A stretch of DNA of 64,000 nucleotides from assembly GCF_024505045.1 (NCBI RefSeq), contig NZ_JANIBM010000007.1:124001-188000 (forward strand), given 5' to 3'. This DNA is from Methylomonas aurea. GTDB taxonomy: Bacteria; Pseudomonadota; Gammaproteobacteria; Methylococcales; Methylomonadaceae. How positions within the stretch are numbered: position 1 is the first letter of the stretch; each line of letters opens with the position of its first letter. Under the pieces are notes generated by a model. The model searched no databases, was not told the DNA's origin, and saw nothing but the letters and a program-made list of their open reading frames with translations. This document shows, piece after piece, positions 49,990 through 64,000 of the stretch. The position numbers and the translations under genes were made by a program.

Positions 49990-51174
49990 ATGTGGCGTAA
50001 GGCAGTTAAATATTACTTTTCTTTTTTCAGTGCCTTATTCCATTTGGGCATAGTGCTTGCTCTGGGCTTTTACCTGACCAATAAAATCACCCACCATTGG
50101 CGTTGGCAAGTTCTGGTTCACGCAATGAAAGGCAGGATTGACGATAGCGCGGTCTACCCGATTAACAGCCGCGAGCAACTCGCAGCTTTGCCGTCGAGAG
50201 TGTGGACCAAAATCGACCAACAGCAACCCGATGCCGAAGCGCGTTTCGAGCGCCAGCCGACCGCGACTTGCGCCTTCGATAAAAAACGCAACCGCCTGTT
50301 GGTATTCGGAGCCGAAGTCAACGAAAACCCGCCCGATAATGCTATCCATTATTTCGACTTGACCAAACTTCGCTGGGAAAATGAGTACGAAGCGGACCCG
50401 TTATCCAGCTATTTTTTGGATAAGTCCGGATTTCTGGTGGCCGGATTTAATTTAAACCATCCGCCGGCGATGCAGGTATTCGGTGCCGGCGCATTCGACG
50501 AGAAAAACGATCAACTGGTCATCGCCAGTAGCGTAAAAAGGGAATTCTATGAAACGCGGCTGCCTAATATTCCGATTCACGAAAGCGTAAATCCGACCTG
50601 GAACTACGATTTTGCGCTAAAACGCTGGCATGCCGAAGCCAACGCAACCGATTTCCGCACCTACAGCGTCGCATACGATGAAGATCGCAATGTGGTAGTC
50701 GGTTTTCAACCCTACCATATCGGCGAATGGAACGGGCAAACCAAATCCTGGCAGAAAGTCGGCAATGCGACCTACCCGGCATGGAATACCAACGCCGTTT
50801 ACGATTCGGTTAATCGCGTGTTTCTATTGTTTGGCGGCAGTAATTTGAGTAATGAGGTCCATAGTTATCAGGCGGGCAGCCAAAAATCGGTCAAAATGCC
50901 CACGCCGGGCATAAAGCCGCCCGGCCGGGCTTCGGTCCCGTTGGTTTTCCATAAAGGTATCGGCAAAATGGTGGCGATTATCGACCAGGATAATTATGCG
51001 GAAACCTGGACCTACGACTATCGAAAAGACGAGTGGCAGCATTTGAACGATATTAAGTTTCCTTATAACGTCGGCATGAATTATTGTTTAGAGTATGACT
51101 CGCGAAATAACATCATGTTATTCGTCTCCAGCCCGCCGATGGAACAAACCGCTGTTTGGGCTTTACGCTTATGA
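49990..51174 (+). CDS. Membrane-anchored kelch/beta-propeller-like protein
   Basis: 394 aa with an N-terminal membrane helix (about residues 8-30) and six or so repeated blades (e.g. ATCAFDKKRNRLLVFGAE, NAVYDSVNRVFLLFGG, YCLEYDSRNNIMLFV), i.e. a kelch-like propeller outside the membrane. Overlaps the lyase start (ATGA). Likely binds the same polysaccharide or positions the enzyme. Confidence 0.78.
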   Translation: MWRKAVKYYFSFFSALFHLGIVLALGFYLTNKITHHWRWQVLVHAMKGRIDDSAVYPINSREQLAALPSRVWTKIDQQQPDAEARFERQPTATCAFDKKRNRLLVFGAEVNENPPDNAIHYFDLTKLRWENEYEADPLSSYFLDKSGFLVAGFNLNHPPAMQVFGAGAFDEKNDQLVIASSVKREFYETRLPNIPIHESVNPTWNYDFALKRWHAEANATDFRTYSVAYDEDRNVVVGFQPYHIGEWNGQTKSWQKVGNATYPAWNTNAVYDSVNRVFLLFGGSNLSNEVHSYQAGSQKSVKMPTPGIKPPGRASVPLVFHKGIGKMVAIIDQDNYAETWTYDYRKDEWQHLNDIKFPYNVGMNYCLEYDSRNNIMLFVSSPPMEQTAVWALRL

Positions 51175-53600
51175 CCAGATTCATGCGCAACGGGCTTTTT
51201 TACCTGACATTTACCGGGCTGCTAGTTCACCTGTTCGTGGCCTACGGATTTTGGGGATTGCAACGCGCGGAACATCTTTCCGCCAGACAGGTTTTGGTCA
51301 AAGCGACAGAACAACTTAATATTGATAATCCAATATTATCCAAGCTATTAGCGCCGGATATAAAATACCTAAACTTTCCTTTTGACGGCGAGATCAAGCA
51401 AAGCCATCCCCGCATTTTGTTGCCGGAATTAAGCAGTTGGAATAATCGGGGCGTACATTCGATTATCTCGGACCGAATCGAGGTTTTTAAACGCGAAAAT
51501 ATTTACTACTCGAACGGATGCGGCGATAACTCGCTGATGCCTGCCGTGGTTTGTTGGCTGTCGACCAATAATACCGACGCGATAGCGGACATCAAACGTC
51601 AGTTATTGAACTTCGAATTGAATAAACCCACCGCCGACACCACCTACAGCAACGGTTGGGAATTGGCGCTGGCTTACGACTTGGCCTATCCGCTGTTGAC
51701 CGACGCCGAGAAGAACCAGGTCGAGACCAAAATATTGGAAGCGCTGCGAGGCACGTTGGCCAATCTGGACGAGGATTTTGCGTCGTTATGGCACGGCAGA
51801 TCCACTCACGCCGCAATCGCTTGGCTCTGCGCCATCGTGTTGTCGGAACAATATGTCGACGATCTGGAGTCTTATCGGCGCCGGGCTCAGGCTCATTTCC
51901 TGAATGCCGCAGAGGGGCTGGCCCACACCGAAGCCTGGCCAGATGGCTACAACTATTGGATTCAAACCCGTGCATTCTATTTTGCATTGGCGGCATCGGC
52001 CTATCGGAACGGCCTGGATCACGCCAACAACCAGGAACGTATCAAGGACATCGTGAAAAGGGTCGGTTATTGGCATATTTACGCGACTCGGCCGGATAAT
52101 CGCATCGAAGGCTACGGCGACGAGGGGTCGCGGATCGACTTGAAAGACGAGACCAAGCGGGTAATAGACCTGATGGTACAAATGACGCACGATCCGGTAT
52201 TAAACGGTTATGCCAAATATCTGGGTAAATTGCATCGCGACAGTTACTATTCGGGTTATGCTTGGGGCATATTATTATTTAACGACCCATCGATTCCTGC
52301 TGTTGGCGACGGTACCTTAGCGTCGCTGGGTAAATATTTAAAGGAAGCGGAAATTTTTGGCAGAGACACGGTAAATCAAATTTATATTAGAAACGGCTGG
52401 GAACCGAACGATACCTTTATTTCGTTCAAGGCCGGAAACTCCTACGGACACCACGCCCATTACGACGCCGGACATTTCACGATATTCAAATCCTCGCCGC
52501 TAATTACCAACAGCAGTACCTATAACGGGTTTTTCCGCCCGCATCGGCTTAATTATGCGATTCGGACGATTGCTAAAAACAGTTTGATCATCGAAAAGCC
52601 GAACGAAAAGGTCAGACCAAATCGGTTTTTCCCTAAAAACGTCGCCGATGGCGGCCAGCGATTGACGCAACCGACCGGGAGTTCGATAGTCAGCATCGAG
52701 CAATGGCTCGAAAATTACCAGAAAGGTTTGCATCTGGAAGGCGGCCAATTACTGAAATTTGCCCGCCGCAATAATGAATATGTTTTCGTTTCGGCGGACT
52801 TGACCGCGGCCTATAACAACTCCGTCTACGACGACAACGGCGATGGCGGCAAAGTCCGCCAGGTTATTCGCAAATTGGTTTATCTACCGACGGAAGACAA
52901 ACTCGTTGTGTACGACACCATTAGCAAAACCAAACCGGAATATGTCGGCAAGTGGATTATTCATTCGGTAAACAAACCGGAGATGGCCGACATCAAAGTA
53001 TTGAAAGGCTCCCCTGACAACGGCATATTGGAAAGCCGCTCGAAAGATATCGAAATAAAAAATAATAACGGCTTTTTGAAAGTCAATATTTTATTGCCGA
53101 GCGATGCCTCGACGCGTTTAGTGGGTGGCAGAGATTACCAATACTATGTCGAAACCGACGGCGACGATACGGTATTCGACGGCGAAAATTTTGTTAACGG
53201 CTCTTCGGCGGATTCATGGCACGACGTCAGTCGCTGGCGAGCCGAATTGTTATCGAATAGCAGCAGTAACGACACCGAATTTCTAGTCTGTTTGGCGCCA
53301 TCGGTCGACAAACCGGTAACCGAAGACGTGCGGAAAATCAGTTCTAAAAATGGCAATGCCCATGGAGTGCTGACAAACGATGCGTTAATCGTATTTATCC
53401 GGGAATCGGCAGCTATGGACGACATCGTTTTCGATTATGTAGACAAGTCCAAAATTATTATCGTCGGCCTGCCTGAATATAGAAATGTCGCTATTCGCAT
53501 CGGCAATAAAAACTTGTTTCAGGGAATAGCCAAGGATGGAGCGGTTTTCTACGACAACCCGAGCTCGGCATCCGGCCAGGTCGAAATCGGCATGAATTAG
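51171..53600 (+). CDS. Heparinase II/III-like polysaccharide lyase (membrane-anchored)
   Basis: Start at ATG 51171 overlapping the upstream stop; 809 aa. N-terminal membrane anchor, then an alpha/alpha toroid (AWPDGYNYWIQTRAFYFA), a central GHHAHYDAGHFTIF with the His/Tyr used by heparinase II/III lyases, and a beta-sandwich C-terminus. It probably cleaves uronate-containing exopolysaccharide in the envelope. The substrate is unknown. Slightly more AT-rich than the core genes around it. Confidence 0.82.
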   Translation: MTRFMRNGLFYLTFTGLLVHLFVAYGFWGLQRAEHLSARQVLVKATEQLNIDNPILSKLLAPDIKYLNFPFDGEIKQSHPRILLPELSSWNNRGVHSIISDRIEVFKRENIYYSNGCGDNSLMPAVVCWLSTNNTDAIADIKRQLLNFELNKPTADTTYSNGWELALAYDLAYPLLTDAEKNQVETKILEALRGTLANLDEDFASLWHGRSTHAAIAWLCAIVLSEQYVDDLESYRRRAQAHFLNAAEGLAHTEAWPDGYNYWIQTRAFYFALAASAYRNGLDHANNQERIKDIVKRVGYWHIYATRPDNRIEGYGDEGSRIDLKDETKRVIDLMVQMTHDPVLNGYAKYLGKLHRDSYYSGYAWGILLFNDPSIPAVGDGTLASLGKYLKEAEIFGRDTVNQIYIRNGWEPNDTFISFKAGNSYGHHAHYDAGHFTIFKSSPLITNSSTYNGFFRPHRLNYAIRTIAKNSLIIEKPNEKVRPNRFFPKNVADGGQRLTQPTGSSIVSIEQWLENYQKGLHLEGGQLLKFARRNNEYVFVSADLTAAYNNSVYDDNGDGGKVRQVIRKLVYLPTEDKLVVYDTISKTKPEYVGKWIIHSVNKPEMADIKVLKGSPDNGILESRSKDIEIKNNNGFLKVNILLPSDASTRLVGGRDYQYYVETDGDDTVFDGENFVNGSSADSWHDVSRWRAELLSNSSSNDTEFLVCLAPSVDKPVTEDVRKISSKNGNAHGVLTNDALIVFIRESAAMDDIVFDYVDKSKIIIVGLPEYRNVAIRIGNKNLFQGIAKDGAVFYDNPSSASGQVEIGMN

Positions 53601-53621
53601 TATCAAGTTCGCTGGACCGCT

Positions 53622-54221
53622 TCAAGCCGCTTCCGCCACCGATTTCCGGCAATTTTCCAGCAATGCGTAATAAGGGCGCAAAGCGGCCATCAACGCTCGG
53701 TAAATCGTAAAAGCATCGGTCGGATCTTTCCGTTTCAGCTCGGCGATTTCGGTCAAAAACCGGTACAGCATTTTGACGAAATTCTCGATCGTCATCGCCA
53801 GCCAGGCGTCGTTAGTGATCCATTTGTCGATGAACTCGTCCAACCGCGCGAATGTGGTTTTCAGCAGCGGATAGGCGGTTTGGGTCTCCTTGAATTCCCG
53901 CAGCAGCATGTATTCCAGGTAAGCCTGTTCGGACGCCAGCCGCGGCCGGTTGGTAATACTGAGGTAATTGGCTTTGTATTCGGCATAGGCGGCATCGTAC
54001 CGATTGCAAAATTCGGTTTCGTTGCCGATTTCCAGCCAAGGCCCCACCACTGCCGCCGTTACGGCGTAGCACTCCCCTATCGCATGGCCCATTTTGTCGA
54101 ACTGTTCGACGAAGGCGGGTTTGGCCAATTCGCCCTTGATCAGCGTTTCGATCGCGGCCAACTCGCTTGCCGTGACGCAAACCGTGGCCAGTTCCTTGGT
54201 TAATTTAAGTTCGATTGCCAT
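53622..54221 (-). CDS. Conserved hypothetical helical protein
   Basis: 199 aa, rich in Tyr/Phe/Leu helices, no membrane segment or signal peptide, no recognised motif. An alternative reading is a small accessory protein of the polysaccharide unit, but it is on the opposite strand. Confidence 0.55.
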   Translation of the reverse strand: MAIELKLTKELATVCVTASELAAIETLIKGELAKPAFVEQFDKMGHAIGECYAVTAAVVGPWLEIGNETEFCNRYDAAYAEYKANYLSITNRPRLASEQAYLEYMLLREFKETQTAYPLLKTTFARLDEFIDKWITNDAWLAMTIENFVKMLYRFLTEIAELKRKDPTDAFTIYRALMAALRPYYALLENCRKSVAEAA

Positions 54222-54281
54222 AGTGCCGTTACCCGATTCCGCTATCTGAATAAAGCCGATGTATTGTCGCGCCCTGGCCCG

Positions 54282-54617
54282 TCACGCGGTCAAATCGACG
54301 ATTTCGGCAACGCAAGCGTTGTCTTTGACGGTGTGCAGCGCGTTATCGAACACCATGGCCGAGCTGTATAAAACGCTTTTGACGATGATGTCGCCCTTGG
54401 TATCTTTGATGACGAAGAAGGTATCGCCCTCGGGCACCTTGCCGGCGGCTATCTGGTGGCTCATCAACGAACCGGTCCGGACTTCCTTAATGGCCTCCAG
54501 TGCTTCGTCCTTGTTGCCGTAATCGGCGCTCATCAAAATCAGCTCGCCTTTACCGTTCAAAAAATGAAAGAAATACTGGTTGTCGTCGTTGGTTTTCAGT
54601 TCGAATGTGGCTGGCAT
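54282..54617 (-). CDS. YegP-like DUF1508 protein
   Basis: Start at 54617 (MPATFELKTND) with GGAG upstream; the in-frame TTG at 54629 sits on that site. 111 aa, with the DUF1508 repeats (FHFLNGKGELILMS and FFVIKDTKGDIIVKS). Function of the family is unknown. Confidence 0.85.
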   Translation of the reverse strand: MPATFELKTNDDNQYFFHFLNGKGELILMSADYGNKDEALEAIKEVRTGSLMSHQIAAGKVPEGDTFFVIKDTKGDIIVKSVLYSSAMVFDNALHTVKDNACVAEIVDLTA

Positions 54618-54629
54618 GGGCTGCTCCAA

Positions 54630-55042
54630 AAGTTAACGCTGGGATTAAACGGGTCGCCGGTTAAAATTCAGCCCTTCGCTGGCTTGAATACCGTTGCAGC
54701 AAACCTACTGCCGGACAATCGAAGGGTTGCAGGCTGCCCCCAGTAGCCGGCAGCAAGCCTTATGCCAATAAAAACCCTTTTAAAATCAGTCGCAAAGCCA
54801 ATGTCATGCCTCACATTGTCGGTTTTGCCACACAACATCGACGCCGATTTGCTCACTGCTGCAGTGAAATGTTCGGCCAATATAAGAAACGGCTTGGCAG
54901 CAGGCGCCAGGCATCGGGCCGATTACTCAACCTAAGCAGAACGATCTAACCCGCCGCGGCGCTCCGCATCGCAAGCTTCGGCGTTAGACGCAGCACCGAT
55001 TCGGCTTTATCATGCCCCCTCCGCCAACCCGCAAAATCGCCC
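54630..55042. other. 413-bp intergenic region, no feature recognised
   Basis: Open frames exist but none has a ribosome-binding site or family signature. I see no hairpin-plus-T terminator and no REP-like repeat in it. Confidence 0.5.
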
Positions 55043-56326
55043 ATGACCGAAGCCACCATCACCTGCCCCAATTGCAGCACCGCCGTGCCGCTGACCGAAT
55101 CGCTGGCCGCGCCGCTGATCGCCGCGACACGCAAACAGTTCGAGGAACAGATCAAACAAAAAGACGCCGACATCGCCCAGCGCGAGCAAGGCCTGAAACA
55201 GCAGCAACAGCAATTACAGGACGCCCAACGCGAACTGGAAAACCAGGTCAAACAACAAGTCGAGAAACAGCTACAAACCGAACGCCAGCGCGTCATCGAA
55301 GAAGAAAGCCGCAAGGCCAAACTGGCGGCCGCCGCCGAGCTGGAGCATAAAAACCGCGAACTGGCCGACCTGACCGAAGTATTGAAAGTCCGCGACGCCA
55401 AACTCGCCGAAGCCCAACAAGCCCAGGCCGAACTGATCAAAAAGCAGCGCGAACTCGATGACGCCAAACGCGAACTGGAACTGACCGTCGAAAAACGGGT
55501 GCAGGACAACCTGAGCCAAGTCCGCGATCAGGCCAAACGCGAAGCCGAGGAAGGATTGAAACTGCGAGTGCTGGAAAAAGACCAGACCATCGCCGCGATG
55601 CAGCAAAAAATCGAGGAACTCAAACAAAAAGCCGAGCAAGGCTCGCAGCAACTGCAAGGCGAAGTCCAGGAGCTGGAACTGGAAAACCTGTTGCGCGCCA
55701 AGTTCCCGTTCGACAGCATCGAACCGGTCGCCAAGGGCGAATTCGGCGGCGACGTGTTGCAGCGCGTCGCAGGTCCATCCGGCACCCCGGCCGGCAGTAT
55801 CTTGTGGGAATCGAAACGCACCAAAAACTGGAGCGACGGCTGGCTGGTGAAACTGCGCGAAGACCAGCGCGCCGCCAAGGCCGAACTGGCCGTCATCGTC
55901 AGCCAGGCCTTACCCAAGGACGTGGAAACCTTCGACGTCATCGACGGCGTCTGGGTCACCGGCCCGCGCGCCGCGTTGCCGGTCGCGACCATACTTCGCC
56001 ATACCCTGTTGGAAATCGGCCTGGCCCGCCTCGCCGCCGAAGGTCAGCACGGCAAGACCGAAATGGTCTACCAATACCTGACCGGCCCGCGCTTCAGGCA
56101 ACGGGTGGAAGCCATCGTCGAAGCCTTCTCGACCATGCAGGAAGACCTGGACAAGGAACGCAAAGCCATCCTGAAACAATGGGCCAAACGCGAAGCCCAA
56201 ATCGAGCGAGTCATGAACGCCACGGTGGGCATGTACGGTGATTTGCAGGGGATTGCCGGCAAGTCCTTGCAGGAAATAGAGGGCTTGGAAATACGGGCGT
56301 TGGGGATGGATGACGACTCGGATTAA
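55043..56326 (+). CDS. DUF2130 coiled-coil protein
   Basis: 427 aa: N-terminal ITCPNCSTAVPL zinc-ribbon-like segment, a long Gln/Glu/Lys coiled coil (about residues 30-210), then the conserved DUF2130 C-terminal domain (SILWESKRTKNWSDGWL, NATVGMYGDLQGI). The C-terminal part has a nuclease-like ESKRTKNW segment, suggesting a PD-(D/E)XK-type core; not proven. Confidence 0.85.
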   Translation: MTEATITCPNCSTAVPLTESLAAPLIAATRKQFEEQIKQKDADIAQREQGLKQQQQQLQDAQRELENQVKQQVEKQLQTERQRVIEEESRKAKLAAAAELEHKNRELADLTEVLKVRDAKLAEAQQAQAELIKKQRELDDAKRELELTVEKRVQDNLSQVRDQAKREAEEGLKLRVLEKDQTIAAMQQKIEELKQKAEQGSQQLQGEVQELELENLLRAKFPFDSIEPVAKGEFGGDVLQRVAGPSGTPAGSILWESKRTKNWSDGWLVKLREDQRAAKAELAVIVSQALPKDVETFDVIDGVWVTGPRAALPVATILRHTLLEIGLARLAAEGQHGKTEMVYQYLTGPRFRQRVEAIVEAFSTMQEDLDKERKAILKQWAKREAQIERVMNATVGMYGDLQGIAGKSLQEIEGLEIRALGMDDDSD

Positions 56327-56352
56327 GCCATAGCCCTCTGTCGTCCGGCTTC

Positions 56353-56470
56353 TGGTTCCCAAGCTCCCGCTTGGGAACCCCGGTCTTGGCAGTTCCAGCT
56401 TCCAGTCTGAATGTGGATAGGAAGCTGGAGCTTCCGAGATAGCATTCTCAAGCCGGAGCTCGGGAACTAG
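56353..56470. repeat. REP-like composite hairpin repeat, copy A
   Basis: Hairpins GTTCCCAAGCTCCCGCTTGG.. (56355-56378), GGAAGCTGGAGCTTCC (56420-56435) and a third degenerate one (to 56470). Same architecture as copy C. Lies between the DUF2130 gene and mazE. Confidence 0.85.
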
Positions 56471-56530
56471 AGATTTGACGTTAATTCACGACCACGTTTA
56501 TACTTACGTTTAAACATTTGGGAGCAGTCC

Positions 56531-56785
56531 ATGACCGAAGCCATACTCGACATCAAACAATGGGGCAATAATCTCGGTGTGCGTCTGCCGGCGGCCATAG
56601 CCAAGGCCGCGCATTTGCACAACCATCAACGGGTAAGGATTTCCGTGGAAGACGATAAAGTGGTCATCACGCCATTGGCCGAAGAAGTTTTGACGTTGGA
56701 GCAGCGCTTGGCCCGCTTCGACCCCGAGCGGCACGGTGGCGAGGCGATGGCGAACACGCAAGCGATAGGCGCCGAACGTTGGTAG
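56531..56785 (+). CDS. mazE: MazE/AbrB-type antitoxin
   Basis: 84 aa with a SpoVT/AbrB fold (LDIKQWGNNLGVRLPAAIAKAA) and an acidic tail to bind the toxin. Overlaps mazF by seven bases. Confidence 0.9.
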   Translation: MTEAILDIKQWGNNLGVRLPAAIAKAAHLHNHQRVRISVEDDKVVITPLAEEVLTLEQRLARFDPERHGGEAMANTQAIGAERW

Positions 56786-57180
56786 CCCGCAAGGAAACGG
56801 CGGTTTGGGTGCCGGAACGGCAAGACATAATCTGGATCGATTGCAATCCTCAGGTCGGCCAGGAAATGCGCGACATTCATCCGTTTTTGGTGCTTTCGCC
56901 GCGCATTTTCAATGAAAAAACCTCGCTGGTGATCGGACTGCCGATGACGACCGCCGCCTACAATGCCGACAATCCGCTTGCGGTAGCGGTCAGCAAAGCC
57001 GGCGGCCGCAAGACCGGACAAACCAGCTATGTGCTCTGCCACCAACCCAAATCCTTCGACTGGCGTTTGCGTCAGGCCAAACCGCATCCTCTCAAATCCT
57101 TGCCGGGCGATGCGTTCGCTCAGGTTTGCGAGCGGTTGAATCAGATTATTCAAATTGCAGGTGATGATGAGAGAGCCTGA
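56779..57180 (+). CDS. mazF: MazF/PemK-type endoribonuclease toxin
   Basis: 133 aa from a TTG at 56779, the only start giving the full fold. PemK features: PERQDIIWIDCNPQVGQE, HPFLVLSPRIFNEKTSLVIGLPMTT. Cleaves mRNA when unpaired from MazE. Confidence 0.88.
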   Translation: MVARKETAVWVPERQDIIWIDCNPQVGQEMRDIHPFLVLSPRIFNEKTSLVIGLPMTTAAYNADNPLAVAVSKAGGRKTGQTSYVLCHQPKSFDWRLRQAKPHPLKSLPGDAFAQVCERLNQIIQIAGDDERA

Positions 57181-57195
57181 GCGCTCTAGGCTCTG

Positions 57196-57219
57196 GTTCC
57201 CAAGCTCCGGCTTGGGAAC
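57196..57219. repeat. REP-like single hairpin, copy B
   Basis: GTTCCCAAGCTCCGGCTTGG.. perfect-stem hairpin, identical arm to copies A and C. Sits between mazEF and parDE. Confidence 0.85.
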
Positions 57220-57291
57220 TAGAAGAAGCTTGCGTTTGGCGTAAGCCGCTACCTATATTAATATCTAATACACCTTATCGGGAGCGAAATC

Positions 57292-57537
57292 ATGGCCAGA
57301 AACACTTCCGTCACCTTGGGTGACCACTTCGATAATTTTGTGCAGGAAAAAATACAGCAAGGTCGTTTCTTATCGGTTAGCGAGGCCGTCCGCGCGGGTT
57401 TGCGCAAGCTGGAAGAAGAGGATCTTAAGCTACAGGCATTAAGAGCCAAACTGCAAGCCGGCGAAGACAGCCCGTTGCAGGAGAATTTCGACGAAGAGCA
57501 GTTTCTGGTTTCGATGCGAACAAAACACAGCCAATGA
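57292..57537 (+). CDS. parD: ParD-like antitoxin
   Basis: 81 aa RHH-type (SVTLGDHFDNFVQEKIQ, FLSVSEAVRAGLRKLEEED), ParD/CC2985 family. Overlaps parE by four bases. Confidence 0.88.
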   Translation: MARNTSVTLGDHFDNFVQEKIQQGRFLSVSEAVRAGLRKLEEEDLKLQALRAKLQAGEDSPLQENFDEEQFLVSMRTKHSQ

Positions 57538-57830
57538 AGCCAAGCTATCGCATCAGGCAACTGGCGGCAGAAGACCTGGAACGAATTTGGCTCTATAGCT
57601 TTCAGCAATGGGGTGCCGAACAAGCCGACCACTACTTACGCGCTCTTTTCGACCGTTTCGCCTGGCTTGCGGAACACCCCAAGCTGGGCAAGGCCCGCGA
57701 CGATATAAAACCCGGTTATTTTTGCTTTCCCGAAGGCCGACATTTAATTTTTTATATCGCTACCGATACCGGCATAGAAATCATCGGCGTGCCCCACCAA
57801 AGCATGGATGTGATTAATCATGTTGGGTGA
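57534..57830 (+). CDS. parE: ParE-like toxin
   Basis: 98 aa RelE/ParE fold (YRIRQLAAEDLERIW, HPKLGKARDDIKPGYFCF). ParE toxins poison gyrase. Confidence 0.88.
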   Translation: MKPSYRIRQLAAEDLERIWLYSFQQWGAEQADHYLRALFDRFAWLAEHPKLGKARDDIKPGYFCFPEGRHLIFYIATDTGIEIIGVPHQSMDVINHVG

Positions 57831-57865
57831 AGTGAATAATGGCATTCGAGGATTCTATCTGGTAT

Positions 57866-57984
57866 CTGGTTCCCAAGCTCTGGCTTGGGAACCCCGGCCT
57901 TGGCAGCTCCTCCTTCCAGCCTGTTTGTAAATAGGAAGCTAGAGCTTCCGAGATAGCGTTCCCAAGCTGGAGCTTGGGAACCAG
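57866..57984. repeat. REP-like composite hairpin repeat, copy C
   Basis: Three hairpins: 57869-57892, GGAAGCTAGAGCTTCC (57934-57949) and 57958-57981; the outer ends CTGGTTCCC and GGGAACCAG are inverted repeats, so the unit itself is palindromic. Between parE and the GHKL gene. Confidence 0.88.
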
Positions 57985-58019
57985 TAAATGTCTAAACGTT
58001 AAGTCCAAGAGGTCATAGA

Positions 58020-59783
58020 ATGAGAAAAGTCGCCTTTCAGGTTGATACACGATTGGCCAAGTTACTTTCCGAAAACTATAGGTCTTCTGAAAGAGCCATA
58101 AAAGAGTTAATTGATAACGCTTGGGACGCCGATGCTGAACTGGTTTCAGTTACCTTTCCAGAGCCACTGACTGACAACCCTGTGATTATTGAGGATAACG
58201 GATCGGGAATGACCGAAGAAGAATTACTTCGGGAATATTTATTTATCGCAAGTGATAGAAGAAGACGACGTGGCGATTACACATCTCTAAAACACAGAAA
58301 AGTAAAAGGCAAAAAAGGCATTGGAAAATTCGCAGGTTTAATGGCGGCAAAAACAATGATGCTGGAAACTTGGACTAGAGGTAAAAAGTATTCTTTCACT
58401 TTAACTACCTTGGATTTAGAGGCTTCTGAAGACATTGAAAAGCTTCCGATTAATCTCGATATGGAAAATTGCGATGCAAACTTACACGGAACGCGAATAT
58501 CATTAAGCGATTTACATCAATCTATGGCGTTTCCCAATCCCGATAAGTTTCGGCAGATTTTGTTGCAAGATTATGGTCGCGAGTCAGATTTCGAAATAAT
58601 CGTAAATAAAAAATCGCTCGGTGTAGATGATATTAGTGGCACTTATACAAAGCACATGGCAACCCTGCCAAATTCAGGAAATATCAAGCTAGAACTCACT
58701 GTTTCCAATCAAAAAGGTAAACTTAAACAACCGGGTATTTGTATCAGGGTTGCTGGAAAAGTGGTTGGAAAACCTGAATTTTTTGGCCTTGATACCGCTG
58801 AAGATTTCCCGTCAAAGCTGCTTGATAAAATATACGGCGAAATCGAAGTCGATGGATTGTTTAATCATGTAACAGCCGACTGGGGAGCAATAGTCGAAAA
58901 TAGTGAGCTATATGACGAAGTTCGACGCTATGTCGAACCCATCATCAGAGAAAAAGTTAAAGAAGAATATGGGCGAGATATCAATTTAGCCCAAGCACGG
59001 TTACAAAAACGCATTAATGACCGGTTATCATCACTTCCTGAATACAAGCGCCAATACGCGGACAAAGCTATTAAAGCAATTTTGGGCAAATATTACGGCG
59101 AACCAGAATCAAAGATGGAGCCAATTGTCTGTGTAATACTTGACGCTTTGGAGCGAACCGATTATCGCACCGTACTTGATTATATCCATGAAGCCGAACA
59201 TTCCGACATTGCCAAACTTGCAGAGGTTTTAACGGAATTCGGATTAGCCGAAATAGCTCTAATTGGGGAACAAGCTAAAAGCCGATTAGAATTTTTGAAT
59301 CGTTTTGAACAACTATGCCAAGATGTAAACACTGATGAAAAACTAATTCATAAAACTTTAGAAAAAAGCTTATGGATATTCGGTGTTGAATACACCATGT
59401 TTAGCAGCAATAAAACACTAAAGCGTCAAATTGAAGATTATCTAGGGAAAACCTATACAGGGAAGCGTAAAAATAAACGTCCTGATTTAATGCTGAACGT
59501 AAACTTTGCCAACGAGTACTTGCTTATCGAATTCAAGCGCCCAAGCCATTCACTTACTCATAAAGACTATCAACAAGCTACAGCATATAGGAATGATTTT
59601 GTGCAATATACCAAATCGGACATCAATGTGCTTTTAATTGGCGGCAAACGCGGAAAAGACTTGCCTCCACTTCATATTAAGGAACCAAATACTAATATAA
59701 TGATTTTCGATGAAGTAATTTCTAATTCACGAAATCAGCTTAATTGGCTGTTAACCCAGCTTGGTGGCGATATGCATGCGTAA
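58020..59783 (+). CDS. GHKL (HSP90/MORC-like) ATPase with C-terminal PD-(D/E)XK-like nuclease motif
   Basis: 587 aa. GHKL motifs: N-box ELIDNAWDADAE (Glu29, Asn33, Asp36), G1 DNGSGM (59-64), G2 KGKKGIGKFAG (about 97-106). The C-terminal domain shows RPDLMLNVNF (Asp489), LLIEFKRP (Glu504, Lys506) and DYQQATAY (Gln518-519), the spacing of a PD-(D/E)XK/Shedu-like nuclease. The gene is visibly more AT-rich than its surroundings and flanked by repeats, so probably acquired. Proposed role: phage defence. No helicase or methylase partner is present. Confidence 0.8.
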   Translation: MRKVAFQVDTRLAKLLSENYRSSERAIKELIDNAWDADAELVSVTFPEPLTDNPVIIEDNGSGMTEEELLREYLFIASDRRRRRGDYTSLKHRKVKGKKGIGKFAGLMAAKTMMLETWTRGKKYSFTLTTLDLEASEDIEKLPINLDMENCDANLHGTRISLSDLHQSMAFPNPDKFRQILLQDYGRESDFEIIVNKKSLGVDDISGTYTKHMATLPNSGNIKLELTVSNQKGKLKQPGICIRVAGKVVGKPEFFGLDTAEDFPSKLLDKIYGEIEVDGLFNHVTADWGAIVENSELYDEVRRYVEPIIREKVKEEYGRDINLAQARLQKRINDRLSSLPEYKRQYADKAIKAILGKYYGEPESKMEPIVCVILDALERTDYRTVLDYIHEAEHSDIAKLAEVLTEFGLAEIALIGEQAKSRLEFLNRFEQLCQDVNTDEKLIHKTLEKSLWIFGVEYTMFSSNKTLKRQIEDYLGKTYTGKRKNKRPDLMLNVNFANEYLLIEFKRPSHSLTHKDYQQATAYRNDFVQYTKSDINVLLIGGKRGKDLPPLHIKEPNTNIMIFDEVISNSRNQLNWLLTQLGGDMHA

Positions 59784-59841
59784 ATAGATTTTCTGGTTTT
59801 TGGCCCCCAAAATCCAGCTTCCGTTCCACCTTCCCCAACCC

Positions 59842-60477
59842 ATGACCCGCAGCCGCTACCGAGTCCTACAAAACTCCAGCCCGCATTTTCTGACCGCGAC
59901 GATCAACCATTGGCTGCCGCTGTTTACCCGGCCGGCAACAGTGAATATCGTGCTGGATTCCTGGCGGTTTTTGCAGCTCGTAGGATGGGTAGAGGCAACG
60001 CCGAAACCCATCAAAATTAAAGCAACAAGACCCAACCCGATTGATGGGTTTCGCTAGCGCTCCACCCATCCTACAAAATTGGCCTGCTTTCCGTTGTACG
60101 ACGGTTACGTAATCCTGGAAAACCACTTGCACCTGATTGCCGCGTCGCCGGATTTGAGCAAGGACATACGGCGTTTTAAGGCTTATACCGCCAAGCAAAT
60201 CATTGCCTATCTGCAGCAAAGCAGCTCGAGGCGGGTGTTGGAGTTATTGGCGTTGCTGAAGCGGCCGCATAAGATCGAGAGCGAGTATCAGGTCTGGGAG
60301 GAAGGTAGTCATCCGCAGTTGATCGCAAGCGAGGCGGTGATGCGGCAGAAGCTGGATTACATTCACCGCAATCCGGTTGAGCGGGGTTATGTGGATTTGC
60401 CGGAGCATTGGCGCTATTCCAGCGCGCGAAATTATGCTGGGTTGGAAGGTTTGATAGAGGTGGTTCGGGACTGGTGA
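59842..60477 (+). pseudogene. REP-associated tyrosine transposase (RAYT/Y1), disrupted by a palindromic element
   Basis: The N-terminal part (MTRSRYRVLQNSSPHFLTAT) and the C-terminal part (GYVILENHLHLIAA with HUH His pair, then Tyr in YTAKQIIAY) are in two pieces because a 95-bp palindrome at 59980-60074 interrupts the frame. Both parts are otherwise intact. RAYTs are thought to mobilise REP-type hairpins; REP-like copies C and D flank this gene. Confidence 0.82.
59980..60074. mobile_element. 95-bp palindromic MITE-like insertion
   Basis: GTAGGATGGGT (59980-59990) and ACCCATCCTAC (60064-60074) are perfect inverted ends; the arms extend to about 33 nt each (GAAACCCATCA / TGATGGGTTTC). It interrupts the RAYT gene. 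Confidence 0.85.
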
Positions 60478-60485
60478 TTGGGTCG

Positions 60486-60534
60486 GGAAGCTGGAGCTTC
60501 CTGGCGGTGGGTTACCAAGCTGGAGTTTGGGAAC
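60486..60534. repeat. REP-like hairpin repeat, copy D
   Basis: GGAAGCTGGAGCTTCC (60486-60501) and GTTACCAAGCTGGAGTTTGG.. (60511-60534), a slightly degenerate form, immediately after the RAYT stop. Confidence 0.8.
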
Positions 60535-60575
60535 TAAAGGGTCCGGATCGGGATCGACTCGCTTTAGCGTTTCAC

Positions 60576-60780
60576 GCCGCCTGATCCACCAACTCCAGTG
60601 CTCTAAACACTGAGCAGTGGATAAACACATTCACCAGTTGCTCGATCAATTCGTCCGCCACCGGCAGTGCGAATTGTTCGGTCATCACTTTCCAGATTTT
60701 GCGACGAGCGGTGCCGTGCCGCGTGTGGTAGCGAATCGTCGCGATTTAATGACGTCGTCGATCTGGTCGCCCCGGTTGGC
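60576..60780 (-). pseudogene. Decayed 3' fragment of the AAA+ ATPase gene
   Basis: The sequence starts GCCGCCTGATCCACCAACTC exactly like the end of the intact AAA gene at about 61852 and continues with the segment coding for the helix before the C-terminus, but about 95 bp are deleted near 60630 and more differences follow. It is a partial tandem copy. Confidence 0.8.
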
Positions 60781-61114
60781 CTATTCCCAAACTGGGGGCG
60801 AAAGGATCAGGGCAAGCGTTTATGCGCCACCCCCACTCAAACGCTTAACGCTGGACCAAGCCCTTTGTCGCAAACTCATCCGCCTGTCGGCCGGATTGTC
60901 GGCAAAATCACCAAGCGCAAGCCCGCAAGGCCCAGATCATTCGGCTGCTTTTTGAAGCCGGCAGCGAATCGGCATTGACAAAGCCAGCCGAATTTCAACG
61001 CTTGCCGGTATCCGGAAAGACTTCCCGCGGCCGGCTCGCGTTGCTGCCGTTACAAGCCTACGAGTGGTTTACATTTTGCTTCGTTAAATGGACACCGTAA
61101 TCCGAGGTTAAACC
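60781..61114. other. 334-bp region with gene remnant, then flavodoxin promoter
   Basis: An open stretch on the plus strand reading R-K-A-Q-I-I-R-L-L-F-E-A-G-S-E-S from about 60923 ends at a TAA near 61100; upstream the frame is shifted, so it looks like a frameshifted remnant of an unrecognised gene. The last 100 bp lead to the flavodoxin gene. Confidence 0.4.
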
Positions 61115-61660
61115 ATGAACAAAATTGGCATTTTCTACGGAACCGAACAAGGCATGACCGAAATGATGGCTCAAGTCATGTATCGCGTGCTGGGCGACGA
61201 TATCGCCAGCGAACCGATCAATGTGAATCGGGCGTCGGTCGCCAAGCTGTTAAGCTATAAAGCCTTGATTTTGGGGATGCCCAGCTACGGGGTCGGCGAA
61301 ATCCCCGGTCGCACCACCGGTAGCGAAGAAGGCAACTGGGAGGAGTTTTTGTTCCGGCTGGACGAAGCCGATCTGTCCGGCAAACGTATCGCCTTGTTTG
61401 GCTTGGGCAATCAGCAAAAATACTACGACCGCTTCGCCGGTTCCCTAATTCATTTGTACCACTACGTGGCCGGCTACGGCGCCGAGGTGGTCGGCGCCTG
61501 GAGCACGGCCGGCTATCACTTTACCCATTCCAACTCGGTGGTGGACGGCAAATTTGTCGGCTTGGTGCTAGATCACCACAATCAACCCGAGATGACGAAA
61601 TCGCGGATTCTGGATTGGCTGGATCAAATCAAACCGGCGCTGCTGGAGAAGCTGAATTAG
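61115..61660 (+). CDS. Flavodoxin (long-chain, NifF-like)
   Basis: 181 aa with FMN-binding FYGTEQGMTEMMA, PSYGVGE and FGLGNQQKYYDRF. Electron carrier; NifF-like flavodoxins donate electrons to nitrogenase, but no nif structural gene is in the window. GAGG upstream of the ATG. Confidence 0.92.
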   Translation: MNKIGIFYGTEQGMTEMMAQVMYRVLGDDIASEPINVNRASVAKLLSYKALILGMPSYGVGEIPGRTTGSEEGNWEEFLFRLDEADLSGKRIALFGLGNQQKYYDRFAGSLIHLYHYVAGYGAEVVGAWSTAGYHFTHSNSVVDGKFVGLVLDHHNQPEMTKSRILDWLDQIKPALLEKLN

Positions 61661-61847
61661 TAATTCTTCTATTGAATAGCCTTTCGCTTTTATGCCCTTG
61701 GGCTCTGAACCTGCCCAAGGGCGCACTCAATGAGGCTTCAAGCAGCGGGCTGGCAGCCAGCCGGATGTCGAACGCCACCGGTGCGCCGCGCGCCGCTGCG
61801 AAAAGACACGACGCTCTATCAACGCTGGCGAGTAAGCTAAACCGTAA

Positions 61848-63554
61848 TTAAGCCGCCTGATCCACCAACTCCAAACCCCTAAACACCGAACAACGGATAA
61901 ACACGTCCAGTGTCGGCGCCAGTTGTTTTTGCAGGCAGAACTTGGCGACCAGTTTGGTCAGGCCCTTGATGTCGCGGCCGGAGGCGCCGGGGAACAGGTC
62001 CACCAGTTGTTCGATCAATTCGTCCGCGACCGGCAGCGCGAACTGTTCGGTCATCACCTTCCAGATTTTGCGGCGGTCGGCGCTGTTGGGCGAGTGGTAG
62101 CGGATCATCGCGATGCAGCGGGAAATTATGGCTTCGTCGATGTCGTCCACCCGGTTGGTGGTCAGGAACAGCAAGCCGTTGAAGTATTCCAGCACCCGCA
62201 GGAACACGCCGACCACGGCGTTGGAGGCCAGATTGTCGGCGCGTTTCTTGATGTAGACGTCGGCCTCGTCGATCAGCATCACCGCACCCCAGCGCTGGGC
62301 GCGGATCAGGGTTTCCTTCAAGGTTTTCTCCATTTCGGCGACGTTCAAACCGAGCTGGCCGGAATGCACCCGGTACAGCGGCCGCTTGATGATCTCCGAA
62401 TAGACCTCCGCGGTCAGCGTCTTGCCGACGCCGGCCGGTCCGGCGCATAGCACCGTGGTGCCGCCGGATTTGCCTTCGACAATGTCGTCCATCAGCATGT
62501 CCATTTCGGCGGTGAGGATGTCGATCAGGTCGGTCTGTTCCGGCGGCAGAATCAGCTTTTGCTTCAGTTCCGGCTGGTAGACGTAGGGCTGTATGTCGTC
62601 GACGTGGACCCAAACGTGGTGGTGCAATTCCAGATGAAACAGCAGGATGTAGCCGTGTACCGGCAATTCGGTGAACAAGCCCTTGCCGACCTCGGCCTTG
62701 GCTTTTTCCATCTGGCTCTCGGTTTTGCTGTCGTAGCGCATGCTTTTGCCGGCCTTGCGCAGATAGGTGCCGAAAATGTCGCCGGAGGCCTCCAAAGTCA
62801 GCGCCCGGTCGCTGAGGATGTTTTCGTCGTTAACCAAGCGACAGGCGCCGCCGCCGGACGACAGCACCACGGTATTCTTGCGGGTCCAGTCGTTGCTGCG
62901 GTGGCTGGCAGTCGGATCTTCGGCGTAGATGCCGGTGCCCCAGCCGGAGAATTGCTCGCCGTAACGGCCGCGCCAGTCGAAATAACGGCCGGCGGCTTCG
63001 TCGTAGCTGGCGATCAAATCGGCGGTTTCCTTTAAATAGCCCTTGCCGGCGAAGATTTCCGGGATGGTTTTATGGTCCAGGTCCTTGCCGCGGATGATCA
63101 GGGTTTCGATGGCGATCTTGCCCTTGCTGTTGGCTTTTAACTCGATCAGGATGCGGCCGGCTTCTTCCTCGCCGGGCGGCGTGTAATCGACCCGGGTGAT
63201 CAAATAGGCTAGCGTTCTACCGCCATGCTCGACATGAAACAACCAGCCGCGAATCGCGCCGTCCAGCAAGTAGCTGGCGATGTCGGGCAGCAGTTTTTCC
63301 AGATCGTCCGGGCCGTAGCGGCGCTGGTCGTCGCTCAAGGCTTGCTGCAAGGCGGTCAGCAGTGCGGCTTGTTGTTGCAGGCTCTCGCCTTGCTGGGCGT
63401 AAATGCCGGCCAAGGTTGCCATCTCGGCGCTGCTGAGTTGGTCGTAAAACACCTGTGCCTTGCTGCCGAAGCGCAGTTGCTCGCTCAGTCCGTTCAAACG
63501 CGGGTGAGCAGCCAACAGTTGCTGCAAGTGCGGTTTTTCGATGGATAATTTCAT
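61848..63554 (-). CDS. AAA+ ATPase with N-terminal unknown domain
   Basis: 568 aa. C-terminal AAA core: Walker A GPAGVGKT, Walker B VMLIDEADVYI, sensor LTTNRVDDIDEAI, then an arginine-finger-type ISRCIAMIRYH. Residues 1-330 are an uncharacterised alpha/beta domain. Follows the Fe-S protein by three bases; probably remodels a protein complex. Its 3' end has a degenerate copy 1.1 kb away. Confidence 0.82.
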   Translation of the reverse strand: MKLSIEKPHLQQLLAAHPRLNGLSEQLRFGSKAQVFYDQLSSAEMATLAGIYAQQGESLQQQAALLTALQQALSDDQRRYGPDDLEKLLPDIASYLLDGAIRGWLFHVEHGGRTLAYLITRVDYTPPGEEEAGRILIELKANSKGKIAIETLIIRGKDLDHKTIPEIFAGKGYLKETADLIASYDEAAGRYFDWRGRYGEQFSGWGTGIYAEDPTASHRSNDWTRKNTVVLSSGGGACRLVNDENILSDRALTLEASGDIFGTYLRKAGKSMRYDSKTESQMEKAKAEVGKGLFTELPVHGYILLFHLELHHHVWVHVDDIQPYVYQPELKQKLILPPEQTDLIDILTAEMDMLMDDIVEGKSGGTTVLCAGPAGVGKTLTAEVYSEIIKRPLYRVHSGQLGLNVAEMEKTLKETLIRAQRWGAVMLIDEADVYIKKRADNLASNAVVGVFLRVLEYFNGLLFLTTNRVDDIDEAIISRCIAMIRYHSPNSADRRKIWKVMTEQFALPVADELIEQLVDLFPGASGRDIKGLTKLVAKFCLQKQLAPTLDVFIRCSVFRGLELVDQAA

Positions 63555-63557
63555 GCA

Positions 63558-63998
63558 TCACTCCTGTGACGGTAAGGCAAGACAAAGTAATTCGGATAAA
63601 TGCAGCGGCTTGCTGAAACCGCCGCCGACGATTTGTTCGCGGCAGGAAAAACCGCTGCCGACCAGCAGCGCGTCCGGCTCGGCGCGCAGTGCCGGGAACA
63701 AGGCCAGTTCGGCCATTGCCTGGGCGTCGGCGTAATGCTCGGCTTCGACGCCGAAGTTACCGGCCATGCCGCAGCAGGATGATTCGATCAATTCGAACGA
63801 CAACTCGGGGATTTGCTTCAGGATTTTGCGGACCGATTTGATCGAGCCGACCGCTTTTTGGTGGCAATGGCCGTGCAGCAACACGCGGGATGGGTGCGGA
63901 ATGGCTTGAAAGGCCAAAGTCCAGCGCTTGGCGCTTTGCTCACGGACGATGAATTCTTCCAGCAATACGACTTTTTCCGCCAATTTCCGCGCCGATTC
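63558..63998 (-). CDS. Fe-S oxidoreductase, C-terminal part (cut by window edge)
   Basis: The frame is open to the right edge; visible parts are HGHCHQKAV and SCCGMAGNFGVE, the CCG domain of GlpC/GlcF/LldE-type proteins. Probably the C-terminal end of a lactate/glycolate dehydrogenase-type oxidoreductase, a subunit or a large fused FAD/Fe-S protein. Confidence 0.8.
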   Translation of the reverse strand, partial: ESARKLAEKVVLLEEFIVREQSAKRWTLAFQAIPHPSRVLLHGHCHQKAVGSIKSVRKILKQIPELSFELIESSCCGMAGNFGVEAEHYADAQAMAELALFPALRAEPDALLVGSGFSCREQIVGGGFSKPLHLSELLCLALPSQE

Positions 63999-64000
63999 GC

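Follow-up and report, generated by a model that had tools for sequence, protein, structure and literature searches.

The stretch of Methylomonas aurea DNA analysed here (the window, 64,000 nucleotides of contig NZ_JANIBM010000007.1) carries on its forward strand, at 58020-59783, an open reading frame of 587 codons that starts with ATG and contains no internal stop. Its product, of 587 amino acids, is predicted to join an N-terminal GHKL ATPase to a C-terminal nuclease of Shedu type, and can be placed among the proteins described as paraMORC3 or GHKL-Shedu, in a clade of short forms. As claimed in an initial annotation made from the sequence, the base composition of the gene differs from that of its neighbours: its GC content, 0.391, is below the minimum (0.478) of 1173 overlapping segments of the same length, 1764 nt, taken from the rest of the 64 kb (mean 0.565, sd 0.032), and the GC content at third codon positions is 0.34, versus 0.55-0.80 in four neighbouring genes.

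The ATPase domain (residues 1-205, 58020-58634) matches the Pfam family HATPase_c_3 over residues 22-158 (E 1.6e-27; 96.6 bits for a cut-off of 25) and contains the motifs E29..N33 (58104-58118), D59-x-G61-x-G63 (58194-58208) and GKKGIGKF (residues 97-104, 58308-58331), as well as residue G157. It is followed by an S5-like transducer module (residues about 207-290, 58638-58889), delimited from the secondary structure and fold of the model described below and holding a near-invariant lysine, K247; the name S5 for the module after the GHKL domain is that used in the available text of PMC2292703, which for MORC proteins in the strict sense gives a motif GhXhhpXXRhl within this domain. A helical stalk or linker (residues 296-434, 58905-59321) leads to the putative PD-(D/E)XK nuclease domain (residues about 438-580, 59331-59759), which includes E440 (59337), R487-P488-D489 (59478-59486), E504-x-K506 (59529-59537) and Q519-x3-Y523 (59574-59588). 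Residues 438-521 match the Pfam Shedu family SduA_C with an E value of 2.8e-5 and a score of 24.8 bits, the curated cut-off being 27. Among the PADLOC models, those of SduA/DUF4263 match the C-terminus (E 1.7e-4), and those named REase_II match the ATPase part (1.9e-15).

A full-length, single-chain structure model (m3321f24fc9c6; 25 alignment rows, pLDDT 78.7) shows the ATPase for the most part with high confidence, with mean pLDDT values of 49-64 per ten-residue block in the stalk from residue 321 to 410. In VIA comparisons, in which entries whose Z scores differ by 1 or less count as tied, the N-terminal 320 residues matched best to MORC2 (5of9; Z 17.4, rmsd 10.2 over 280 residues) and the ATPase alone matched TRAP1 (5tth; Z 17.0, rmsd 2.9 over 173), MORC3 also being matched. 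Because the ATPase part filled the whole-model Foldseek and VIA lists, the last 174 residues were folded alone with AlphaFold2 (22 rows, pLDDT 85.6). When Foldseek's own candidates for this model were re-aligned with VIA, the four top ranks were all Shedu structures, namely 8ti9 (nuclease domain of Bacillus cereus Shedu; Z 12.6, rmsd 2.7, 141 residues aligned), 8ps5 and 8ps4 (Escherichia coli SduA; Z 10.8 each) and 8ti8 (10.3), followed by the non-Shedu entries EndoMS (9.7) and BspD6I (9.5). A sequence search of the PDB with the nuclease domain returned only Shedu entries up to an E value of 10 (0.043 and 0.21), and a search with a profile of the domain returned 8ti8 (6.7e-4), 8ti9 (4.3e-3) and then a coiled-coil chimera (0.015), a match that is taken for chance. 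In the model, the C-terminus has the Shedu (DUF4263) nuclease fold. Structure prediction, which the initial annotation had proposed as a check on its Shedu-like nuclease, thus agrees with that assignment, and the GHKL motifs that it had read at the N-terminus correspond to an intact ATP site. The B. cereus and E. coli proteins share the nuclease fold, and no GHKL part was matched in their entries.

Conservation and spread of the family

Relatives of the protein were found at 29 loci by a scan of genome contigs, and six near-full-length relatives (42.6-52.6% identity) were found on plasmids. The nearest relative, 78% identical, is encoded in a metagenome-assembled genome (MAG) of Methyloglobulus. 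An alignment was made of 28 proteins, including that of the window, to which the others are 38-78% identical; the interrupted or truncated loci L011, L012, L014, L024, L029 and L031, the plasmid locus L049, which is likewise interrupted or truncated, L019 (incomplete at the N-terminus) and two unfetched plasmid hits (H4 and H5) were left out, and the early-ending L010 was kept. Invariant in all 28 are E29, N33, D59, G61, G63, K96, G97, K99-F104 and G157 in the N-terminal part, residue 98 being the variable one within the GKKGIGKF motif, and E440, H444, W452, R487-D489, E504, K506, Q519, Y523 and R524 in the C-terminal part. Asn33, Glu504 and Lys506, which the initial annotation had singled out for mutation, are therefore among the invariant positions. 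The N-terminal columns are those of the Bergerat-fold ATP site, and Q519 and Y523 form what we take to be the Q-x3-Y motif of RecB/Cas4-type nucleases. The acidic and lysine columns of the C-terminal part are the E-D-ExK set described for paraMORC3 in the available text of PMC2292703. SduA_C matches 27 of the 28 proteins at E<=0.01 (a threshold on E value and not the curated cut-off), and the REase_II models of PADLOC match all 28.

In a tree of 39 of the 40 rows supplied (a fragment of 41 residues was dropped), the 28 short proteins, of 545-593 amino acids, are separated from the long forms by a branch with an SH-aLRT support of 99; the tree was made by a quick method and carries a long-branch warning, several of the long forms having long branches. 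The spacing between the glutamate of the ATPase and the lysine of the nuclease is 477 residues in the window protein, 477-481 across the short clade, and 506 and 516 in the long forms measured. The short clade is represented in Pseudomonadota, Planctomycetota, Verrucomicrobiota, Myxococcota and others, and its gene tree mixes phyla, with a Desulfuromonadales row falling among gamma- and betaproteobacteria. Both the ATPase and the nuclease sites are intact in the window protein and invariant across several phyla.

The gene is rare among close relatives of its host. An orthologue was found in one of 37 genomes of the genus, that of the window, the other 36 giving only distant relatives (24-35% identical over the matched parts), and in a sample of 369 genomes of the class the only match at 1e-40 was again in this genome. 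At least six of the 29 genome-contig loci (the six interrupted or truncated ones named above) hold broken copies. In one of them, from Aliidiomarina (L011, 6035-9035), the match is split into residues 1-255 and 243-587, with about 1.2 kb between the two parts that is probably a mobile insertion. Two members of the clade, L051 and L052, 70% and 42% identical to the window protein, lie on contigs that IMG/VR lists as viral, and a search of 50,697 phage records gave two partial hits, each covering 26% of the query. These few and partial matches, together with only two members on such contigs, indicate that this is not mainly a phage gene, and phage carriage as its main home was rejected. Regarding the host, the Pfam family AMO (PF02461, a subunit of methane/ammonia monooxygenase) has two above-cut-off matches in the genome and none in 14 control genomes, which, together with the nearest relative being in a Methyloglobulus MAG, implies that the host is probably a methanotroph.

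Six long forms, of 643-653 amino acids and with the same domain order by alignment, were inspected: one in contig C6 of the same genome, one in Escherichia phage PhiR44_1, and those of Rhizobium, Agrobacterium, Tritonibacter and Acinetobacter plasmids. They are about 22-24% identical to the window protein (the full-length PhiR44_1 protein not being among those measured). The genes of three of them, in the phage (L050, with gene names of P2 type) and in the Rhizobium and Acinetobacter plasmids (L076 and L077), adjoin a cytosine methyltransferase gene and represent a branch of the family coupled to restriction-modification (R-M). The long form of the same genome (L004, G000:C6, 7197-9158; 653 amino acids, 22% identical) sits in a cluster resembling type I DISARM, with a SNF2-like helicase, a large adenine methyltransferase and a DUF1998-type helicase, all named by reading the sequence.

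Function of the protein

Very probably the protein is a DNA nuclease that is gated by ATP, is encoded by a single gene and belongs to the paraMORC3/GHKL-Shedu kind, and its role would be to protect the cell from phages or from other DNA that enters it, a reading that combines the sequence motifs, the structure models and the analogy with a tested relative. That relative is VcSduA, the type I-D Shedu protein of Vibrio cholerae (Nat Microbiol 2025, PMC12137116). According to the available text of that report, VcSduA is a single-gene system with a GHKL N-terminus that confers protection from T1-like phages on E. coli and from phage X29 on V. cholerae, its variants E27A (ATPase) and K557A (nuclease) are both inactive, and growth curves were interpreted to mean that the phage is targeted directly and the host survives. 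Both proteins are encoded by a single gene and show N-terminal GHKL motifs I-IV, a clamp-like middle part and a C-terminal PD-(D/E)XK nuclease of DUF4263 type, and by our assignment the glutamate and the lysine required in VcSduA correspond by motif to E29 and K506. The distance between these residues is however 530 in VcSduA, by the published residue numbers (E27 and K557), and 477 here, so that we consider the window protein a member of a separate, shorter GHKL-Shedu clade; VcSduA is a relative and is probably no orthologue, orthology being unsupported by the spacing.

The architecture, GHKL plus S5 plus a C-terminal nuclease with E-D-ExK motifs, and the patchy spread place the protein within paraMORC3, of which a standalone subset was described in proteobacteria and bacteroidetes by Iyer, Abhiman and Aravind in 2008 (PMC2292703, as far as its available text goes). 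The same text ties most MORC and paraMORC families to R-M operons, unlike the window locus, where none was seen. The compact single-gene GHKL-nuclease proposed in the initial annotation thus stands as regards its architecture and the lack of a partner, but not as something new, since the type is that of paraMORC3 and type I-D Shedu; the assignment to this type is well supported and the type itself is ordinary, the fresher part being the slot in which the gene lies, bounded by repetitive extragenic palindromic (REP) elements and a REP-associated transposase (RAYT).

That the protein would act alone was also claimed, and this agrees with the neighbourhoods of its relatives: in an all-versus-all BLASTP (1e-8) of neighbouring open reading frames at 35 loci, including the window and some with short flanks, no family recurred at more than three. 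A GHKL ATPase and a predicted Shedu-like nuclease in one polypeptide, with no conserved partner, is therefore a supported description. Neighbours were also compared with PADLOC models at 1e-15 (122 nearest neighbours of up to 1300 amino acids were picked from 33 loci and 119 were scanned, three rows of L048 being dropped). Among the matches listed, the first 25 of 239 families, there are type I R-M subunits and GajB, SngAB, pAgo, MADS and BREX models. Three of ten large immediate neighbours match defence models (GajB of Gabija, 1.5e-263; a type III restriction enzyme, 7e-121; a type I specificity subunit, 1.1e-90). By analogy, a defence role of the window protein is supported by VcSduA, by these neighbours and by the other genes that occupy the slot.

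Several observations weigh against this reading. The SduA_C score is about 2 bits short of its cut-off, and the confidence of the model in the stalk is low. With Foldseek alone, the C-terminal model had no match at E<=0.001, the best being 2vld (0.011), with the Shedu chain 8ps5 at rank 20. The identity to the long form of the same genome is 22%, and the spacing of VcSduA is longer by some 50 residues. Seven of the ten large immediate neighbours gave no PADLOC match at 1e-15, a proportion for which there is no baseline of random genes, and the slot cargoes of genomes G020, G009 and G031 gave no useful match in profile scans, to defence families or otherwise.

With regard to mechanism, the GHKL heads would dimerise on binding ATP, as those of MORC, MutL and Hsp90 do, and the stalk and S5 modules could then close around DNA. 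The C-terminal nuclease might be allowed to cut once something particular to foreign DNA, such as a free end or an unusual topology, is recognised, and ATP hydrolysis would reset the clamp; the host chromosome would be spared if it lacks the triggering feature. In the available text of PMC12904381, E. coli SduA is described as a homotetramer whose N-terminal clamp binds DNA ends and which nicks at a fixed distance. The short clade adds to these proteins a compact form, with two identifiable active sites in one polypeptide and no linked methyltransferase found, and could serve as a simple model in which to study how nuclease activity is gated by a MORC-like clamp, which is also a question for the MORC proteins of eukaryotes.

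It is unlikely, though it is the strongest of the alternatives, that the protein belongs with the type II restriction enzymes BbrUII and HgiDII and that its cognate methyltransferase is either absent or encoded at an unlinked site. The NCBIfam model of these enzymes (NF050001), which resemble the window protein in their GHKL part, does match it with an E value of 1.3e-44, the REase_II models match the whole aligned family, here over the N-terminus, and the three long forms mentioned above adjoin a methyltransferase. The NF050001 score is however 152.9 bits, far below the cut-off of 550, its best stretch is confined to residues 25-205, and the nuclease fold is Shedu-like. Moreover, motif IV of cytosine methyltransferases was found within 4 kb at none of 35 short-clade loci (the window not among them) and nowhere in 50000-64000 of the window, by a scan that is not fully sensitive, since at the six long-form loci it found two of the three methyltransferases shown by annotation. 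A restriction enzyme with a methyltransferase of its own was rejected on that score and on the lack of a C5 motif near the relatives or in the window. Near seven of the 35 short-clade loci there is a motif resembling that of N6/N4-methyltransferases, so R-M neighbours do occur.

A housekeeping role in repair or recombination, as a MutL-like ATPase-nuclease, is improbable. MutL models match weakly (best 1.3e-6), the GHKL-S5 architecture is shared, and distinct functions were proposed for standalone paraMORC3 in the available text of PMC2292703. This reading was rejected on distribution: the gene is rare and patchy in genus and class, mixes phyla in its tree, occurs also on plasmids and on contigs catalogued as viral, and is often interrupted or truncated. 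Equally improbable is that the gene is a recently acquired, non-functional passenger. Relatives are often broken, and so is the adjoining RAYT gene, but the copy in the window is intact and has every catalytic residue. Broken copies are common for defence genes.

The slot in the genus Methylomonas

The gene is carried as cargo in a slot that recurs across the genus, with a DUF2130 gene on one side and a gene for a REP-associated transposase on the other, and whose layout is DUF2130, optional MazEF, optional ParDE, REP, cargo, RAYT and REP. In the window the slot spans 55043-60534, with its genes all on the forward strand. The DUF2130 gene (55043-56326; Pfam 6.9e-81) forms the upstream border and is followed by a REP doublet (56344-56470, palindromes at 56355-56378 and 56444-56467), a MazE-like gene, named from position and sequence, with a MazF/PemK toxin gene (56531-57180; MazF Pfam 1.3e-23), a REP hairpin (57196-57219), a ParD and ParE toxin-antitoxin pair (57292-57830; Pfam 3.2e-25 and 1.2e-17) lying between REP elements, and a second REP doublet (57858-57984, palindromes at 57869-57892 and 57958-57981) that lies 39 nt upstream of the GHKL-nuclease gene. 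The RAYT-like gene (59842-60477), of Y1 type, forms the downstream border, and 37 nt after it there is a degenerate REP hairpin (60511-60534). With up to three substitutions allowed, six REP hairpins are found in the window, all between 56355 and 60534. The island of toxin-antitoxin systems and repeats reported in the initial annotation is confirmed by this cluster and by the Pfam matches to MazF (PemK family), ParD and ParE.

DUF2130 was found at 1e-60 in 18 of the 37 genomes of the genus, and in 13 of these a RAYT of this kind lies within 10 kb downstream, its pieces being 71-100% identical to the copy of G002; no such RAYT was found within that distance in the other five (G006, G008, G013, G015 and G028). 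With G012, which has the slot with only a remnant of DUF2130, there are 14 slots (the others at L065-L070, L082-L084, L086, L087, L089 and L090), and they hold 11 types of cargo with no BLASTP match to each other at 1e-3. Besides the GHKL-Shedu gene of the window, these are DRT8 in G002 (2.1e-132), HEC-01A and B in G023 (1.2e-196 and 7.6e-97), a PDC-S49/KAP-like protein in G012 (1e-19 over 180 of 579 residues), a caspase-like protein in G024 (2.4e-6), an M78/RmrA-like pair with weak matches in G035, a P-loop protein in G011 and G025, an AAA pair in G005, G034 and G036, and the unmatched cargoes of G020, G009 and G031. That the slot's other cargoes include known or candidate defence systems supports a defence role of the gene. 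The GC content of the cargo (0.32-0.53) is lower than that of the upstream flank (0.50-0.59) in all 14 slots, by only 0.03-0.04 in G036 and G034. The AT-richness of the GHKL-nuclease gene, its presence in a single genome of the genus and the occupation of the slot by other cargoes in relatives are signs of recent acquisition.

From the biology of RAYTs, REP elements are expected next to a RAYT gene; the unusual feature of this slot is a changing cargo between constant borders. The exact palindrome, with its four-base spacer, has four copies in the 4.8-Mb genome, all in this slot, and with up to two mismatches it occurs at ten places, five of them in the slot. Over the 37 genomes there are 47 exact copies, 25 of which lie inside slots (counted from the DUF2130 start to 60 nt after the RAYT, about 72 kb in total); none of the exact copies of G005 and G012 is within their slots. 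In 8 of the 14 slots a REP precedes the cargo at a distance of at most 90 nt, and in 10 of them one follows the RAYT after 36-39 nt. When the left part of the window's slot is compared with the 13 others, homology stops at the end of a REP in seven, at 57219 for G020, G002 and G025, at 57984-57988 for G011, G031 and G012, and at 56470 for G009. It stops inside a REP doublet for G035, and after MazF or DUF2130 for the remaining five (G005, G034 and G036; G023 and G024).

It can be proposed tentatively that the gene is a defence cartridge in a slot that takes up mostly single, AT-rich and often defensive genes, one at a time, and that exchange is driven by the palindromes of the slot, acting as recombination anchors or as substrates of the transposase. 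The slot would then be a chromosomal hotspot of defence genes whose driver is neither an integrase nor a phage but a domesticated single-strand transposase acting with its REPs. If this mechanism is true, the biology of REP and RAYT would be linked to the turnover of defence genes. The slot is also a place in the genus in which to seek unknown systems, as at least 5 of the 11 cargo types are without a clear defence match. Among titles and opening lines of abstracts on RAYT/REP or on Methylomonas and defence, a sample in which subscription journals are thinly covered, none dealt with a defence slot bounded by a RAYT.

The layout of the slot bears as well on whether the gene forms one composite system with ParDE or MazEF upstream of it, as their effector or accessory, the least probable of the alternatives, which was rejected on independent co-occurrence: the genes share a strand and the ParE stop is about 190 nt upstream, but a REP doublet lies between ParE and the gene, MazF and ParE are found in the slot beside quite different cargoes, and no neighbour family recurs among the relatives beyond the three loci already mentioned.

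The name RAYT rests on the REP context and on a sub-threshold Y1_Tnp match (0.042) of the G002 copy. In the window an insertion of about 102 nt, at about 59981-60100, breaks the gene and brings in a stop codon, and the inserted stretch is also present in G020, without the 5' part of the RAYT gene. Downstream of the slot, between the RAYT and a flavodoxin-like gene, the stretch 60576-60780 resembles the 3' end of an AAA-ATPase-like gene at 61848-63554 (58 nt at 83% with 61852-61909, and a longer match via G020), and is a degraded partial copy of that end.

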